Source: Candidatus Binatia bacterium
GTDB lineage: Bacteria > Desulfobacterota > Binatia > UBA12015
Length of the DNA stretch: 64,000 nt
Direction: 5' to 3'
Assembly: GCA_029243485.1 (NCBI GenBank)
Contig: JAQWRY010000079.1
Location: forward strand, 1-64,000
The notes under the pieces are model-generated. The model did no database searches and was not told the origin of the DNA. It saw nothing but the letters and a program-made list of their open reading frames with translations. The position numbers and the translations under genes are program-made. Each line of letters opens with the position of its first letter. The first letter of the stretch is position 1. This document shows positions 98 to 22,031 of this stretch, one piece after another.

Positions 98-2392
98 TCA
101 GAAGCGGTAGCTGAGCTCCGCGCCGTAAGTCCGCGGCGGCGCGTAGTACCAGACCAAGTTCCCGAATGTTGAAACGAACGGTGAGACGAAGTTGAAGTTG
201 GCTTCGTCGGTCAGGTTCCGGCCCCACAGCGCGACCTGTGCTCGGTCATCGAGAAAATCGTAGCTGAGCCGAGCGTGGAGCAAGTTGTAGCCACGCTGCG
301 TCGCCTGGGGCACTTCGGTGCCCGCCCAATTGATCGCAGCGTTGTAGGCCCAATCGACGCGCGGCGTGATCCAGCCATCGAGCCACCCGGGACCGCCCGC
401 CTCGATCCCGAAGGAATACTGAAACGAGAGGTACGACTGGAGGTCGGGAACGCCGATGAATCGCTGACCGGCGCGGTCGATCGGCTCCCCATCGAGATCG
501 CTGATGGATTCAAAGGTGTCGTACGTCGCGTCGAGATAGCCGATCGAACCGCGAATCTGCGCACCCTCGAACGGGACCGCGAGGATCTCGACCTCGACCC
601 CCTGTGTGGCCGCCTTCCCGGCGTTCAGCGTCTGGCGATTCGTCTGAATCCCGCCGGGCGCGTCAGGGTCTTCGGCGACCTCGAGGACCCGTGACCTGCA
701 GATCGCTATAACCGCCGTAGAAGAGCGCCAGATTGAACGTCACTCGCTGGTCGAAGCCGATCGTCTTGAAGCCGAGCTCGTCCATGTCGAGCGTCTCCGG
801 ATCGAATGGCAGCAGCTCCTCCACCTGCGGGTTGATGACTCCGTTGAAACCACCACCTTTGAAGCCTCGCGAGTAGGTGAAGTAGCCCATCAGGTGATCG
901 AGGGGCGTGTCGCCCATCAGATCTTCGGGCAGGGTGAACGCGAGACTACCCATCGGCGTCCATGCGTCGAACGTCTTCGAGTTCGCCTCGTCGACGGTCG
1001 GCGGGGCGTCGGCACGAGGGTCGCGACTGATGATCCCGAGCTCCTTCTTGTCCGACGTGTAGCGGACACCGCCGGTGAGGCTCGCCCACTCCGTCATGTC
1101 CCTCGTGGCCTGGCCGAAGAGCGCCCAGGTGAAGTTGTCTATCTTGGTCGTGCCCTCGGTGACGGAGTTCAGGACCTCGGGGACGGCCTGGGTCACGCTG
1201 ACGTCGTTGCCGTTCTCCCAGAAGAGGAACGCACCGGTCACGTAAGAGAGCCCACCCTCGAGCGCTTCGCCGTTCACCTGGAACTCCTGACTGACCTGCT
1301 CCTGCAAGCGGCCGTCACCGTTCAGCGGGTCGCCGCCGGAATTCGAGAGCTGCAACAGCTGAAACTAGGTCATGTCGAGGTCGTCACGGCGGCGCGGCTT
1401 TTGCTGGCGCCACGAGGTGAGAGACTTCAACTCCAGGCTCTCCAGTGGGCCCAGATCACCGGTGTCCCACTGAATCGTCCCCCAGGTTCCGTAGCTCTCG
1501 ACGTCCAGGATCTGCGCGACGTTCGGCGAGCCTTCGAACAGCTCGCTCTTCTCGCACGCGTCGTAGAAACCGGGCACGAGCGTACCCAGGCCTTCTCGAA
1601 GAATGACCTCGCACTCTCCGCCTTTCCCAAACGTGTGTTGCCGCGACCACGAACCACTCACGTCGATCGTCACGTCGTCGACGGGAAGAACCCGGACCGA
1701 GCCGAGAAACGACAGCGAGTTGCGGTTGCTGTACCCATGATCGCGGAACGAGTTCTCGAAATAGCCCGCATCGTTCTGACTTCCGAACGCGAACCTCGCG
1801 AAGAGGCGGTCCTCGATCACGGGGAGGTTCACCATGGCTCGGGTATCGATCGTTCCCAGGCTGCCGGGACGCACGAAGGCGAAGCCCTCGAATTCTTCGC
1901 TCGGTTTGATGGTCGTGATGTTGATCGCGCCGCCGACGGTGTTCTTTCCGAACAGTGTCCCCTGGGGCCCACGCAGAACTTCGACCTGCTGCACGTCGAG
2001 CACGTCGATGATGCTGCCGAACGACCTGGGGAGGAAGACCCCATCGACGTAGATCCCGACGCCCGGATCGAAGGCGATCTCTCCGGTCGACGTCCCGACG
2101 CCGCGGATCTTGACCGTGCTCTCGAGATTTCGACCGGCGGTGAACTCCATGTTCGGAACGAGATCCTGAATCTCGTCCAGCCGTGTGATGCCCGCCTCGC
2201 GGAGGGTCGTCTCCCCCAGCGCGGTGACCGAGACCGGGGTGTCCTCGAGAAGCTCGTCCCGACGTCGCGTTGGTACTCAGACGGGGATTCGATCCGTTCG
2301 GCGCCGGCCGGCCCGGGCCACGACTGCGGCCCCAGGGCCAGTAAGGCTAAACCGGCGATGGCGGAGTGCTTTCCAGCTCGTGAGTTCGGCAT
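98..2392 (-). pseudogene. TonB-dependent receptor, pseudogene (three lesions)
   Basis: This is a paralogue of the intact receptor at 4620-6944, sharing QVEVLRGPQGTLFGKNTVGG, FDPGVGIYVDGVF, a GFKGGGFNG segment and a C-terminal ELSYRF beta-signal ending in Phe. The likely start is the ATG at 2390-2392, preceded by GGGGAGGA and followed by a signal peptide. Three lesions are visible. Near 2250-2290 the frame changes where the TonB box (EEIIVTARRR in the paralogue) should be. At 1365-1367 a TAG stands where the paralogue has a CAG Gln codon. Near 665-710 a frameshift separates SDLQV from the rest of the barrel, which then continues in another frame to 98. Rejoined, the pieces make a nearly complete outer-membrane importer. 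It is divergent from the lipoprotein gene at 2495. Sequencing indels could explain the frameshifts but not the stop substitution. Confidence 0.88.
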
Positions 2393-2494: not shown

Positions 2495-4543
2495 ATGCGC
2501 GCCCAAACTCGCCGTGCACCGACCGCAGGTCTTCTGGTCCTGATCCTCATCGCGGGCTGCGGCGACAGCAGCAGTTCCGGCGAAACGTCGGACGGCCGCG
2601 GCGATGGCGGGAGCCCTTTCGACGGCACCATAGAGCTCAACGTCCCAGACGCCGAATTCTGCGAGGCACTAGATCGCCGACACTGCCTGCTCCCGTTCCC
2701 CAGCGACTTCTTCACCGAGACCGACGACGCCACCGACACGGGGATCCACGTTCTCCTTCCCACGGATGCGATGCCGGTCAACGTTCATGGCGTTCCGGTC
2801 GACACGACCGAGTGGAATCGAAACGATGGATTTTCGCCGGGCGCCCAGATCCTGACGTATGTCGGCAAGGTCGACCTACCCGCCTCCGGCGCAGCGCCGA
2901 TCACGGACATGGCCCGGTCTCTCGAGCCCAACGCACCGATCGTGCTCCTAGACGTGGAGACCGGCGAGCGCATTCCGCACTGGGCCGAGTTCGACGCCAA
3001 CGTCGAGAGCGATGCCAATCGCGTTCTGTTCGTGCGACCCGTGAAGAACCTCCTGGAAGGGCATCGACACATCGTCGCGTTGCGCGGACTCGTCGATACT
3101 TCGGGGGAGGCGATTTCAGCATCGGATGAGTTCCGCGCTTACCGCGATCGCCTCGAGTCCACCGTCCCGGCAATCGAAGACCGCAGAGAGCACATGGAGG
3201 GCCTCTTCGCCTCGCTCGACGGTGCCGGCGTGGATCGCGCCGACCTGATTCTCGCGTGGGACTTCACCGTCGCAAGCGAACGCAACCTCTCCGAGCGCCT
3301 GCTCCACATGCGGGACGACGCGTTCGCGCGCCTCGCCGATGCGGCTCCCGCGTTCGCCGTGACGGAAGTCGAGGTCGATCTCGACGACAACGTCGCGCGA
3401 CGTATCACAGGAACGTTCGAGGTCCCGCTCTACATGACCGAGGGCGGAATCCCCGGGGCGCGCCTCGCCTACGGCGACGACGGCCTTCCGGCCCACACGG
3501 GCACGTATACAGCTGCCTTCCGCTGCATCGTCCCGGGCGTGGCTCTCGCGGGCCCAGACGGCACTGCCGTGCCCGCGCGCCCGAGCGTCTACGGACATGG
3601 GCTCCTCGGGAGCGAACGCGAGGTGAGCGCCGGGAACGTACGGGCGATGTCGAACGAGCACCGGTTCGTGTTCTGTGCGACGAAATGGCTCGGCATGTCC
3701 GAAGAGGACATCAGCAACGCCGTCGGGATCCTCAGCAACTTCGCCAACTTCCCGACGCTTGCCGACCGTTGCCAACAGGGAATCCTGAACGCGTTGTTCC
3801 TCGGCCGGCTGATGATCCACGCGGACGGACTCGGCTCGCACGAAGCGTTCCAGGGGAGTGGCGGCGCCTCCGTCATCGATCCAAGCGAGCTCTTCTACGA
3901 CGGCAACAGCCAGGGCGGCATCATGGGAGGTGCAGCGACCGCCGTGGCGATCGACTGGACCCGCGCCGTGCTCGGCGTGACCGGAATGAACTACTCGATC
4001 CTCCTGCAACGCAGCGTCGACTTCGACACCTATAACGCCATCTTCGAGCCCGCCTACGAGAACGAGATGGAGCGAAGCCTTCTCCTCGTCATCGCGCAGA
4101 TGCTCTGGGACCGCGGCGAAGCGAATGGGTACGCCCACCACATCACCGAAGACCCGCTTCCGGGTACGCCCGCGCACGAGGTCCTGATGCACGTCGCGCT
4201 CGGAGATCACCAAGTCGCGCAAACAACGGCCGCCATCGAGGCGCGCACGATCGGCGCGAAAATCCACCGGCCGGCCGTCACCAAGGGGCGACTCCAAGAC
4301 CTCACCCCGTTCTGGGGCATCGACCCGATTCCGGCCGACCCGTACTCGGGCTCCGCCCTGGTCATCTGGGACAGCGGCTCACCGGCACCTCCGCTCGAGA
4401 ACGTTCCCCCGCGAGAGGGCGAGGACCCCCACGAACACCCGCGCGCGGACGAACAGGCGCGCGTGCAGAAGTCAGAGTTCCTGCGCACGGGGGGCACAGT
4501 GGTGAACGTTTGCGGTGACGCGCCCTGCATGGTTCCGCGCTAG
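2495..4543 (+). CDS. Lipase-like alpha/beta-hydrolase lipoprotein
   Basis: A 682-residue exported lipoprotein. The N-terminus has a basic stretch, a hydrophobic core and a lipobox (LIAGC, Cys22), followed by a Ser/Gly-rich tether. The mature part opens with a segment rich in Cys, Phe and Pro (HCLLPFPSDFF) of a kind I associate with the bacterial lipase/virulence-factor lipase family. A nucleophile elbow GNSQGG lies near residues 469-474, after a YGHGLLG segment near 365-375 that could form the oxyanion region. The likely role is hydrolysis of esters or lipids at the cell surface; the substrate is unknown. It lies between two receptor genes, so release and uptake of a lipid-like compound is a reasonable inference. 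The gene ends with TAG, 76 bp before the intact receptor. Confidence 0.75.
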   Translation: MRAQTRRAPTAGLLVLILIAGCGDSSSSGETSDGRGDGGSPFDGTIELNVPDAEFCEALDRRHCLLPFPSDFFTETDDATDTGIHVLLPTDAMPVNVHGVPVDTTEWNRNDGFSPGAQILTYVGKVDLPASGAAPITDMARSLEPNAPIVLLDVETGERIPHWAEFDANVESDANRVLFVRPVKNLLEGHRHIVALRGLVDTSGEAISASDEFRAYRDRLESTVPAIEDRREHMEGLFASLDGAGVDRADLILAWDFTVASERNLSERLLHMRDDAFARLADAAPAFAVTEVEVDLDDNVARRITGTFEVPLYMTEGGIPGARLAYGDDGLPAHTGTYTAAFRCIVPGVALAGPDGTAVPARPSVYGHGLLGSEREVSAGNVRAMSNEHRFVFCATKWLGMSEEDISNAVGILSNFANFPTLADRCQQGILNALFLGRLMIHADGLGSHEAFQGSGGASVIDPSELFYDGNSQGGIMGGAATAVAIDWTRAVLGVTGMNYSILLQRSVDFDTYNAIFEPAYENEMERSLLLVIAQMLWDRGEANGYAHHITEDPLPGTPAHEVLMHVALGDHQVAQTTAAIEARTIGAKIHRPAVTKGRLQDLTPFWGIDPIPADPYSGSALVIWDSGSPAPPLENVPPREGEDPHEHPRADEQARVQKSEFLRTGGTVVNVCGDAPCMVPR

Positions 4544-4619: not shown

Positions 4620-6944
4620 ATGATGGCGCGGTCGCTCTGGGTCGTTCTACTCTTGCTCGATCTTCTCGTCGTCCCGACACCCCGGACATGGGCCCAAGAC
4701 GCCCCCCCGGAAGCCGAGAAAGACAGGGGTCGGATCGAGGAAATCATCGTTACGGCCCGCCGTAGGGAAGAACTCCTCGAGGACACGCCGATCTCGATCA
4801 CGGCGGTCACGGCGGACGCACTCCGCGAGACCGGCGTCACGCGCCTGAATCAGATCCAGGAACTCGTCCCTAACCTGACCTTCTACTCAGGCCGCTCCGG
4901 AACGACCTCCGCCGTCTTCATACGCGGCGTCGGGCAGGTGAATTCCATCATCACGTTCGACCCCGGCGTCGGGATCTACGTCGACGGGGTCTTCCTCGCA
5001 CGCGCGGCCGGCTCGGTGCTGAACGTATCGGACATCGCACAGGTCGAGGTCCTGCGCGGCCCCCAGGGGACGCTATTCGGCAAGAACACGGTCGGCGGTG
5101 CGATGAACATCACCACCGTGCAGCCCAAGGAGGAGCTCGAAGGCTGGGCGTTTGTCCGAGCCGGTAGCTTCGACTCGGTCCAAACGCGCGCAATGGTCAA
5201 CATTCCGGTCGACTTCGGCTGGCTCGAGGACAAGCTCTTCACCCGCTTCTCGTTCTCCTCCGAGAACAGCACGGGCTACACGAAGAACACTTTCCAGAAT
5301 CGGAACGGGAATACGAGGAACTCCCTCGCGTTCCTGGGAGCCGCTCGCTTTCTGCCCACCGAAGACATCGAGTTCCTCTTGAAGGGGAGTTGGTTTCGCG
5401 ACCATACGACGAGCAAGGGCGGAGAATGCGTCGTGGTGACGGATCCGTCGCCGCTCTCCGGGCTGATCCAGGAACCGGGCTTCCTGCCCGCGTGCCGCGA
5501 TAGCCAACCATACCGCTTCCAAGCCGACACCGCGTCCATCGCGGACCTCGAGAGCTACGGCCTGTGGGGCGTCGGCACCTGGGACCTCGGCGATGCCGGC
5601 CCCGCCGAGAACCTCTCACTGAAGTCGATCACTTCGTGGCGCGAGCAGGTTCCTCAGATCCGCGAAGACGGCGACATGACGCAGTTTCGCGTTCTGCAAT
5701 TGAACGACATTCCCGGCGATCCACCGTTCAATGGAGAGGCGGGCCATCAACAACAGATCAGTCAGGAAATCCAACTCCAGGGCGATGCCCTCGAAGGCAA
5801 CCTCTCCTACATCGGAGGCTACTTCACCTATTGGGAGACGGCGGACGCGACCCAGACGATCGAGTCGCTCACGAAAGCGCCGGCGAGTCTCGGCGGAAGC
5901 TCGCGAGCCCACGTCGCCGTCGACAACTGGTCGTGGGCCCTGTTCGCCCAAGCTACGTACGATCCGCTCGAGTGGCTGAGCCTTACCGCCGGGCTCCGGT
6001 ACACCGAGGAGAAGAAGGGCTTCGCGAAGAATCAGATGAACGTCTTGAACGGCGACATCATGGTCGACGCAGACGAGAGCGAGGTCTTCACCGCGTGGAC
6101 TCCGATGGCGAACTTGTCCATCCGCGCACCCGACGATTGGATCGACTCAACACCCTTCGATCACTTGCTCGGCTACCTCACCTACAGCCAAGGCTTCAAA
6201 GGCGGTGGCTTCAACGGCAACACGCGCAGCGGTGTCCCCGATCAACTCCAACCGTTCGACCCGGAGACGCTCGACTCGTACGAGATCGGCTTCAAGACGA
6301 TCTCATGGGAACAGAAACTCATCTTCAACGTCTCGCTCTTCTATGGCGACTACTCCGACATCCAGGTCTCCACCGTCGTTCCGGGCAGTGGCTTCCTCGC
6401 GGAGATCGTGGTGCGGAACGCGGCAAAGGCGACCACGAAAGGCGGTGAGTTCGAGCTTACCGCCCTCCCCTTCGACGGCGCGCAGATCATCGGCTCGATC
6501 GGCTTCGTCGATGCCACCTACGACGACTTCTCGAGCGTGAGCGCTCTCGACAATTCCGTGATCGACCGGGCGGGCGAGCCGTTCAACGACATTCCGGCGT
6601 TCCAATCACGCCTGACATTGCAGTATTCCTACGAGCTCCCTGCGTTCGGGCCCGACTGGCTCGACGGCTGGATCACACCGCGACTCGACTGGTTCTATCG
6701 AAGCGCCGTGAACTACCAGTTCCCGGAACTCACCCAGGCCGTACAAGGCGGATACAACTTGCTCCACGGCCGCCTTTCCTACGATTTCAACAACGACCGC
6801 AGCCAGGTCGCGTTCTGGGCCCGAAACCTGACCGACGAAGCCTACTTCCAGCAGGTCCTCCCAACAGCCAGCACCCTCGGAACCGCAACGAGGTACTACG
6901 AATCCCCGCGCTCGTTAGGAGTAGAGTTGAGCCACCGCTTCTGA
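4620..6944 (+). CDS. TonB-dependent outer-membrane receptor
   Basis: A 774-residue receptor with a complete domain order. There is a signal peptide ending near residue 25 (TWAQD), a TonB box EIIVTARRR at about 41-49, a plug domain with VEVLRGPQGTLFGKNTVGGA, and a 22-strand-type barrel ending ELSHRF with the terminal Phe expected for BAM recognition. It imports a ligand across the outer membrane using TonB/ExbBD energy. The family resembles the large group used for complex organic compounds as well as siderophores, and the ligand cannot be told from sequence. ATGATG gives two adjacent starts; the first is used. The stop TGA (6942-6944) is immediately followed by palindromic element copy 2. The broken paralogue at 98-2392 has the same arrangement. 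Confidence 0.93.
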   Translation: MMARSLWVVLLLLDLLVVPTPRTWAQDAPPEAEKDRGRIEEIIVTARRREELLEDTPISITAVTADALRETGVTRLNQIQELVPNLTFYSGRSGTTSAVFIRGVGQVNSIITFDPGVGIYVDGVFLARAAGSVLNVSDIAQVEVLRGPQGTLFGKNTVGGAMNITTVQPKEELEGWAFVRAGSFDSVQTRAMVNIPVDFGWLEDKLFTRFSFSSENSTGYTKNTFQNRNGNTRNSLAFLGAARFLPTEDIEFLLKGSWFRDHTTSKGGECVVVTDPSPLSGLIQEPGFLPACRDSQPYRFQADTASIADLESYGLWGVGTWDLGDAGPAENLSLKSITSWREQVPQIREDGDMTQFRVLQLNDIPGDPPFNGEAGHQQQISQEIQLQGDALEGNLSYIGGYFTYWETADATQTIESLTKAPASLGGSSRAHVAVDNWSWALFAQATYDPLEWLSLTAGLRYTEEKKGFAKNQMNVLNGDIMVDADESEVFTAWTPMANLSIRAPDDWIDSTPFDHLLGYLTYSQGFKGGGFNGNTRSGVPDQLQPFDPETLDSYEIGFKTISWEQKLIFNVSLFYGDYSDIQVSTVVPGSGFLAEIVVRNAAKATTKGGEFELTALPFDGAQIIGSIGFVDATYDDFSSVSALDNSVIDRAGEPFNDIPAFQSRLTLQYSYELPAFGPDWLDGWITPRLDWFYRSAVNYQFPELTQAVQGGYNLLHGRLSYDFNNDRSQVAFWARNLTDEAYFQQVLPTASTLGTATRYYESPRSLGVELSHRF

Positions 6945-7057
6945 GGGGACGTTGGTTAGTCTCGCGATTTTTTTTTAGTCGTGAACGCCGAGCGTTCGGG
7001 CCCGAGCTGAAGTTCCATCGCGACTAAACAAAAATCGCGAGACTAACCAACGTCCCC
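6945..7057. repeat. Palindromic 3'-end element, copy 2 (shared by two convergent genes)
   Basis: The arms start ggggacgttggttagtctcg and end with its exact inverse complement. The stem is about 37 bp, with a G-to-T mismatch in the left arm (ttttttttta versus tttttgttta). It begins on the base after the receptor stop codon. Its right arm contains the stop codon of the convergent sugar-kinase gene: GGG GAC GTT GGT TAG reads as the last four residues GDVG plus stop. The loop matches the reverse complement of the copy 1 loop with scattered differences. It could act as a bidirectional transcription end or RNA-stabilising hairpin. Mobility is inferred only from copy number. Confidence 0.93.
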
Positions 7058-7963
7058 GACCCGACAGGCGACCTCGGCGGCGGTGGGTATCGAGGGGCCG
7101 GCGCCGGCTCGCTCGACGCAAATCGAGGCGGCGAGGTTCGCGTAGGAGAGCGCGCCTTCGAGATCGTCGCCGGCGGCCGTGCGCGCAGCGAGAGCGCCGA
7201 CGAACGTGTCGCCGGCGGCTGTCGTGTCGACGACTCTCGCGGGATGTCCGGCGAGGATGATTTCGCGGTGTCCGGCAAGCGCTACCACGCCGTGCCCACC
7301 CAGGGTCGCTACGACGGTCTGAGACGAATCGGTCCGGGCGGCGCGCAGGCCCGCGAACACTGCGGCGGTGTCCGACGGGTTCGGCTCGGGCCGCTCGGCC
7401 AAGTAGGCGAGCTCGCTCTCGTTCACGACGAGGACGTCGGCGCAGCCGAGACTCGACGCGCCCCCTGGAAGAGACGGCGCCGCGTTCAGGATCGTGGTCG
7501 CGCCCGCGGCACGGGCCCGGCCGAGAACCGCGGCGACCGTGGGCAAGGGGATCTCGAACTGACAGACGACGACGTCGCCCTCGGAGAAGTCGGCGACGAC
7601 GTCGTCGGGCTCGACGCGACCGTTGGCGCCGGGAACGACGACGATCGAATTCTCACCGTCCGAGGCCACGACAATCAGCGCCACACCCGTGGCGACGCCT
7701 TCGGTCCGAACGACGTGCTCGACCCGCAGTCCCTGCGCTCCGAGGAACGCCATCTGCTCCCCACCGAAGCCGTCGTCGCCGACCCGACCGACCATCCAGG
7801 TCTCGGCACCAAGCCGCGCCGCGGCCACCGCCTGATTCGCCCCCTTCCCACCGGGATGCGTCGCGAACTCCATCCCCACCAACGTCTCACCCGGCCGAGG
7901 CTGCCTATCCGCTCGAGCGACGAGGTCCACGTTGATTGATCCGACGACGAATACCCTCGACAT
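7043..7963 (-). CDS. rbsK: Ribokinase-type sugar kinase (PfkB family)
   Basis: A 306-residue kinase that phosphorylates ribose or a related sugar with ATP in the cytoplasm. The N-terminus has the PfkB pattern VGSINVDLV and the sugar-binding GGKGANQAVAAARLG segment (residues 38-52). The C-terminal signature DTTAAGDTFVGAL starts at residue 246, with Asp252 as the expected catalytic base. The length is normal for ribokinase. The last four residues (GDVG) and the stop codon are encoded by the palindromic element at 6945-7057, so the native C-terminus was replaced or extended. No ribose transporter or regulator is adjacent. The true substrate could be another pentose or nucleoside. Confidence 0.9.
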   Translation of the reverse strand: MSRVFVVGSINVDLVARADRQPRPGETLVGMEFATHPGGKGANQAVAAARLGAETWMVGRVGDDGFGGEQMAFLGAQGLRVEHVVRTEGVATGVALIVVASDGENSIVVVPGANGRVEPDDVVADFSEGDVVVCQFEIPLPTVAAVLGRARAAGATTILNAAPSLPGGASSLGCADVLVVNESELAYLAERPEPNPSDTAAVFAGLRAARTDSSQTVVATLGGHGVVALAGHREIILAGHPARVVDTTAAGDTFVGALAARTAAGDDLEGALSYANLAASICVERAGAGPSIPTAAEVACRVGDVG

Positions 7964-21348: not shown

Positions 21349-22020
21349 ATGTCGTCTTCCGGCCTGCTCCTCGCAGCGGCGACCCTGACACTCGTCGGGG
21401 TCGCCGGTACGGCCGTCACCGACCCGGCGCAGTCCCTGTTCAACGGACGCGGCGAAGACCCCAACGGCGTGTACACCGTCGTCGAAGAGGACGGTGAGCC
21501 GGCAATCCGGATCTCCGGCGAAATCTGGGGAGCCCTCGTCACCCGGAACGAGTTCGAGGACTACCACCTACGCCTCGAGTACAAGTGGGGCGAGGACCGC
21601 CATGGCCTGCGCGCCGACGCCCCGCGCAATACCGGCGTCCTCTATCATTCCGTCGGTCCCGACGGCGCGTTCTGGAGCTACTGGATGCGCTCGGCCGAGT
21701 TCGAGGTCATGGAGGGCCGCACCGGCGACTTCACCTCCGTGGACGGCATCGAGGCCACGATTCCGACCAAGTGGGGCCTCCGCCACCAAGTCGACGGCCA
21801 CGAAACCCCCCTCACCCGAGGCTCCATCCAACTCCAATCCGAAGGCGCCGAAGTCTTCTTCCGCCGCCTCGAACTCCTCCCCCAGAGTGGGGACGTTCCC
21901 CCAGAGTGGGGACGTTGGTTAGTCTCGCTGATTTTGTTTAGTCGCCGCACGCGGTATACGCGGGGCGCCCACCGGTTCACCACGGCTTCGGCCGCGACTA
22001 AACAAAATCAGCGAGACTAA
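21349..22020 (+). CDS. DUF1080 (3-keto-disaccharide hydrolase-like) protein with element-encoded tail
   Basis: An exported protein with an N-terminal signal peptide (ending near residue 24). It has the DUF1080 beta-sandwich pattern LFNGR near residue 30, then RNEFEDYHLRLEYKWGED, then RNTGVLYHSVGPDG, a segment with EFEVMEGRTGD, and GAEVFFRRLELLP at the natural C-terminus. DUF1080 enzymes act on 3-keto-glycosides, as hydrolases or lyase/hydratases. After residue about 178 the frame runs through palindromic element copy 3, adding about 45 residues unlike any DUF1080 end and stopping at TAA in the right arm. A 19-bp tandem duplication at 21879-21916 caused this: removing one unit gives the ending LLPQSGDVG plus TAG. 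It is likely functional unless the tail interferes. Confidence 0.82.
   Translation: MSSSGLLLAAATLTLVGVAGTAVTDPAQSLFNGRGEDPNGVYTVVEEDGEPAIRISGEIWGALVTRNEFEDYHLRLEYKWGEDRHGLRADAPRNTGVLYHSVGPDGAFWSYWMRSAEFEVMEGRTGDFTSVDGIEATIPTKWGLRHQVDGHETPLTRGSIQLQSEGAEVFFRRLELLPQSGDVPPEWGRWLVSLILFSRRTRYTRGAHRFTTASAATKQNQRD
21879..21916 (+). repeat. 19-bp tandem duplication at the element border
   Basis: cccccagagtggggacgtt occurs twice in direct succession (21879-21897 and 21898-21916). The unit spans the gene/element junction, containing the outer ggggacgtt of the palindrome plus ten bases of flank. Its length (not a multiple of 3) shifts the DUF1080 reading frame into the element. Confidence 0.95.
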
Positions 22021-22031
22021 CCAACGTCCCC
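21908..22031. repeat. Palindromic 3'-end element, copy 3
   Basis: The first 37 bases (starting ggggacgttggttagtctcg) pair perfectly with the last 37. Relative to copies 1 and 2, both arms carry the same change (ctgattttg for cgatttttg), so pairing is preserved. The loop is longer and unrelated to the other loops. It lies between the DUF1080 gene and the isomerase gene. A TGGAGGTGATTC ribosome-binding site for the latter begins directly after the element, so the palindrome sits in a probable polycistronic transcript. Confidence 0.95.

Follow-up and report, generated by a model that had tools for sequence, protein, structure and literature searches.

The palindrome that recurs in the window (i.e. 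the whole stretch of DNA analysed, the first 64,000 nucleotides of contig C79 of a Candidatus Binatia bacterium) is likely a miniature element mobilised by a RAYT/TIRYT-type transposase, which survives at the 3' ends of genes where a stop codon in its arm takes the place of the native one. It would be a REPIN-like dimer of terminal inverted repeats, non-autonomous and moved by a RAYT/TIRYT-type HUH/tyrosine transposase; an autonomous copy elsewhere in the genome carries a gene for such an enzyme between matching arms. Copies are almost confined to gene 3' ends, chiefly tight convergent junctions. A gene in frame with the arm stop would need no stop of its own and would end with four extra residues (GDVG or RDVG in this genome); in the other frames a longer tail would be gained, so that the native stop must stay.

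The palindrome in the window and in the genome

All three copies were located where the preliminary description had placed them (1-97, 6945-7057 and 21908-22031), although the first does not have a complete stem: contig C79 begins at base 1, which removes the outer left arm and leaves the inner stem (1-24/58-81) and the right arm (58-97). The second copy consists of a left arm on the plus strand (6945-6984; GGGGACGTTGGTTAGTC, a spacer and TTTTAGTCG, consensus GTTTAGTCG), a loop of 33 nt (6985-7017) and a right arm on the minus strand (7018-7057) that is the inverse of the left. Its 40-nt arms are 95% complementary, and the 41-nt arms of the third copy (21908-21948, plus strand; 21991-22031, minus strand) are 98% complementary; the folding z-scores against shuffled sequence are −12.0 and −14.1, respectively. 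An Rfam search of the window gave zero matches, by which a known RNA family was ruled out as the identity of the palindrome.

The genome-wide search for the arm, proposed with the preliminary description, revealed the element far outside the window. In the source genome (G000; 6.55 Mb, 88 contigs) there are 90 half-sites of GGGGACGTTGGTTAGTC with at most two mismatches, versus 1 match for a reversed-pattern control, which rules out a chance repeat; this census comprises the pattern matches and approximately 55 fetched neighbourhoods. The typical element is 113 bp long, with arms of ~ 37 bp composed of GGGGACGTTGGTTAGTC and GTTTAGTCG with a spacer, usually of 11 nt, between them, followed by a loop of ~ 33 nt and the inverse arm; each arm contains a terminator-like stem and a T-run. 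Between copies the spacers have a mean identity of 57%, yet they are identical in both arms of 15 of 23 copies, compared to 3% between copies. The dispersed unit is thus two inverted repeats in a hairpin with a compensated stem, a trait described for REPINs (PMC3116915). In the sister family of genus-mate G002 the spacers match between arms in only 1 of 25 copies, so arm-to-arm matching is not required for dispersal. The arm of G000 was not found in the three genus-mates searched, and scanning the GTDB genome collection for the exact pattern gave 0 matches; the family is new by sequence.

A second subfamily (AGGGACGTTCGTTAGTC ... GTTTAATCGTCAC) is present at L037:11558, L044:3515, L064:3570, L070:3503, L073:3527, L077:3515 and L081:3535. 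It is conserved over just one arm of ~ 40 nt, for which no partner arm was found, and is probably older than the main family. The palindrome also marks the assembly itself, since at least 10 contigs terminate inside it (e.g. window position 1, C2, C3, C13, C18, C48, C52, C63, C86 and C88). The right ends of C3 and C63 carry a TatD and a SnoaL gene that are adjacent in G001, and the element could therefore serve scaffolding; the end of C49 (L053:3521-3640) folds back on itself across the palindrome and is an assembly artefact.

The transposase and its relatives

A RAYT gene between matching palindrome arms, a further check suggested at the outset, was found on contig C71 (locus L068), where inverted arms of the palindrome's family at 3538 and 4578, 1.04 kb apart, enclose the gene of a 293-aa Y1 transposase. 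The protein matches Y1_Tnp (PF01797, E = 6.8e-8, 33 bits against a cut-off of 23), its alignment contains the HVH motif and the conserved tyrosines, and its closest NCBIfam model is the REP-associated tyrosine transposase, with 67.4 bits (68.7 for the homologue in G002 and 85.4 for that in G343, at a cut-off of 80). The gene ends within the right arm, which provides its stop codon (GAC GAC TAA A). Homologues with 56% identity in Deltaproteobacteria Bin_38_12 (G343) and 51% in G002 are encoded in the same arrangement, between arms of their own (GGGGACGTGCGTTTAATT and GGGGACGTTCGTTACC, respectively), within which these transposase genes likewise end, and each of the two genomes holds ~ 60-80 half-sites of its own arm. 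Long recurring inverted repeats thus enclose a transposase gene in all three genomes. Among the RAYT loci examined across the phylum, the majority are bounded by inverted ends starting with GGGGACG, or else by a GTCAG-type end, in units of ~ 1.0-1.1 kb. A PDB sequence search with the RAYT gave no match, and a RAYT search of viral contigs found none. A second, weak Y1 match in G000 (C88) has no arms nearby.

Following these results, it is highly probable that the palindrome is the non-autonomous element of a RAYT-type transposase, and the protein encoded on C71 may well be the one that transposes it. Among known elements, TIRtrons/REPINs come closest. As in TIRtrons (Di Nocera et al. 2013, PMC3733652), a tyrosine transposase gene lies between long terminal inverted repeats, and the repeats are also dispersed as dimers or singletons, share a G-rich start motif and are found near gene ends. 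The differences are that the arm start in G000, GGGGACGT, fits only 6 of the 8 positions of GGGGWSAS (arms of other members of the phylum carry GGGGTCAG, which does fit), that the present arms hold a short motif twice, and that the supply of stops tracks the stop frame across three related families. With REPINs and their RAYTs (Bertels and Rainey 2011, PMC3116915; Nunvar et al. 2010, PMC2817692) the element has in common an inverted-repeat hairpin of ~ 70-110 nt, compensatory changes in the stem, a cognate RAYT between the same repeats, and coevolution of RAYT and repeat. The present arms, however, are long and TIR-like, without the short palindrome tagged by GTAG or GTGG (no GTAG tag was found at the foot of the G000 arm), and there are ~ 60 copies rather than hundreds.

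Gene ends and reading frame

The three copies in the window touch four gene ends, which had been described as sharing one register (GGG GAC GTT GGT TAG). At both TonB receptor genes a TGA directly abuts the arm, in register (TGA|GGGG): at 98-100 on the minus strand for the first receptor (copy 1), and at 6942-6944 on the plus strand for the second (4620-6944; copy 2). The PfkB-family sugar kinase (7043-7963, minus strand) uses the TAG in the right arm of copy 2 (7043-7045) as its actual stop, its protein ending in ...CRV|GDVG*. The fourth gene, of the DUF1080 type and by Pfam a 3-keto-disaccharide hydrolase (21349-22020, plus strand), is preceded at its arm by a 19-bp tandem duplication of CCCCCAGAGTGGGGACGTT (21879-21916, units 21879-21897 and 21898-21916, plus strand), which repeats the arm's nine outermost bases and moves the gene into another frame. 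According to frame arithmetic, the gene would read ...LLPQS|GDVG* without it, as had been claimed; with it, the frame runs through most of copy 3, and the readthrough yields a C-terminal tail of ~ 40 residues that is mostly encoded by the palindrome. The single register is present at the receptor and kinase ends, and would be at the fourth without the duplication, but these are not clearly four independent events, since the receptors are paralogues (52-59% amino acid identity, their gene ends and elements matching over 150 nt at 84%) and the kinase and one receptor have an element in common. The first receptor gene (98-2318, minus strand) has a frame break at ~ 625-690 relative to its paralogue, which makes it either a pseudogene or the product of an assembly error.

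For the whole of G000, genes beside arms were called with a home-made dicodon coding model that had been trained on the fetched loci. By these calls, 67 of the arms have the 3' end of a gene in front of them, which bears out the location first seen in the window. The register depends on what precedes the arm. Without an upstream native stop (30 of the 67 arms), 25 genes read GGG GAC GTT GGT TAG in frame, 3 use the second stop (+31) and 2 read through. Where a native stop stands no more than 25 nt ahead of the arm or is created at its edge (30 arms), the frames are 8/10/12, and in both G000 and G002 such retained stops lie at variable distance (0 to about −25 nt) in all three frames. A fixed register of insertion, as originally proposed, is thus rejected, while the register does hold where no native stop is present (some copies, e.g. 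those at the two receptor genes, may be non-independent, and each species is represented by one genome). In a slightly broader tally, 26 predicted genes stop at the TAG of an arm (GDVG* 20, RDVG* 4, GDVR* 1, GDVD* 1), so the element indeed carries stop codons for its neighbours. This stop lies 12-13 nt inside the outer end and lengthens the protein by four residues. A point against the preferred explanation is that the second stop (ten-residue tail; 3 cases) is avoided more strongly than tail length alone would lead one to expect. In the clear cases Pfam domains are complete before the arm (TatD, 4-264 of 268; amidase; amidohydrolase; molybdopterin-binding), which rules out gene truncation as the general case.

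A comparison of the three families indicates what the register follows. In G343 (a sample of 30 loci) a TAA is the first stop of the arm; its frame is not that of the TAG in G000, and it is the frame used by 11 of the 12 open genes. The arm of the G002 family has no early stop, and just 2 of 53 genes extend past its edge; the others end at a stop of their own, which mostly lies 0-16 nt ahead of the arm (frames 13/12/15). The families differ accordingly (Fisher tests: p = 1.8e-7 for G000 versus G002, p = 9e-7 for G343 versus G002). The register therefore tracks the stop codon and not the insertion: the arm stop makes the native stop dispensable, and survivorship would cause the frame bias. Retention owing to a tolerated stop, which the preliminary description had offered as one of two options, is accordingly the best-supported reading. 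That the copies in G000 and G002 descend from common insertions is rejected, as among about 50 loci in each genome there is a single junction in common (patatin/DUF4340, convergent genes), making the copies largely independent insertions. At this junction G002 has an autonomous element (L204:2766-3790) where G000 has a miniature copy, which may be a hotspot or a coincidence.

Convergent junctions and the order of events

Of the outcomes that had initially been named as speaking against the proposal, copies in all three frames do occur, while random placement in intergenic space does not: copies are found at gene 3' ends, and most of them where two genes converge. In G000, 15 of 24 element pairs occupy convergent junctions, versus 54 of 293 background adjacencies (18%; p = 8e-6), and in G002 15 of 25 do, versus 12 of 71 (17%); divergent junctions with element pairs number 0 and 1, respectively. 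Together with the strong hairpin and the terminator-like stem and T-run of each arm, this location would suit a bidirectional transcription terminator or mRNA stabiliser that is selected by the host and is not mobile. That explanation is very improbable, however, given that the families are species-specific and each matches the ends of its own RAYT, that only one junction is shared among the loci of G000 and G002, and that the window has no Rfam match. A secondary benefit of the hairpin to the host may exist.

Orthologues in G001-G003 end at the edge of the arm or at most 4 codons beyond it, with one case ending two codons before (the orthologous ends of TatD, amidohydrolase, alpha/beta hydrolase and the sodium:sulfate symporter were retrieved with one joined four-fragment C-terminal query, the others with single proteins). 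Upon in-silico excision of the element, several genes are without a stop for 30-100 codons (the FabI-like and alpha/beta hydrolase pair in L084, and both genes of L071), so that a simple precise insertion is not sufficient and native stops must have disappeared as well, either on insertion or afterwards. Which of these came about bears on two further explanations. In one, the transposase would target stop codons or convergent stop-stop junctions and replace them, always in the same register. The arm edge does lie exactly at, or 1-4 codons ahead of, the native stop of the orthologues in several genes. Moreover, the TatD/SnoaL junction of G001 has overlapping stops (CTAG) and the kinase/amidohydrolase junction of G002 abutting stops (TAGCTA), exactly where in G000 the arms serve both genes with an arm TAG. 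These two junctions are compatible with insertion into tight junctions as well as with directed replacement. As retained stops are found 0 to about −25 nt away in three frames in both G000 and G002, and the flanking consensus is weak (roughly GGA), directed insertion is unlikely. The same low probability attaches to its stronger form, in which the transposase would recognise convergent stop-stop junctions and exchange them for its own arms, rewriting two gene ends in register, with the depth of the stop having evolved for tolerance; if true, one mobile element would rewrite two gene ends simultaneously.

The other explanation is a version of the preferred one, that of a miniature element surviving where its stop replaces the native stop, and differs solely in the order of events. 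Here the element would land a few bases 3' of the stop, and the native stop would decay through small deletions or substitutions where the arm stop is in frame. It accounts for the equal frames in the class with retained stops and the skew in the class without, as well as for the native-length proteins and the lack of nearby stops after excision. On the other hand, the outermost 17 nt of the arm would have to stay unchanged through many such losses, and among the 30 copies with a retained stop, phase 0 is not clearly under-represented (8 copies). Later loss is a serious candidate, of slightly less than even probability.

That REPs lie near 3' ends and that REP termini give a TAG to ORFs has already been reported (PMC3733652). 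In GTAG-tagged REPs, too, the termini provide TAG to flanking ORFs near the 3' ends of convergent or same-strand genes, but these belong to a different sequence family, and the present stop lies inside the arm and produces a tail. What the three-family comparison adds to this literature is an explanation for the register. Why REP-like elements cluster at the 3' ends of genes has long been asked, and three related families here form a natural experiment: a gene can do without its native stop solely in the frame in which the element brings one. This would give a direct account of how mobile elements are tolerated at gene ends, and of a common C-terminal tail on approximately two dozen unrelated proteins.
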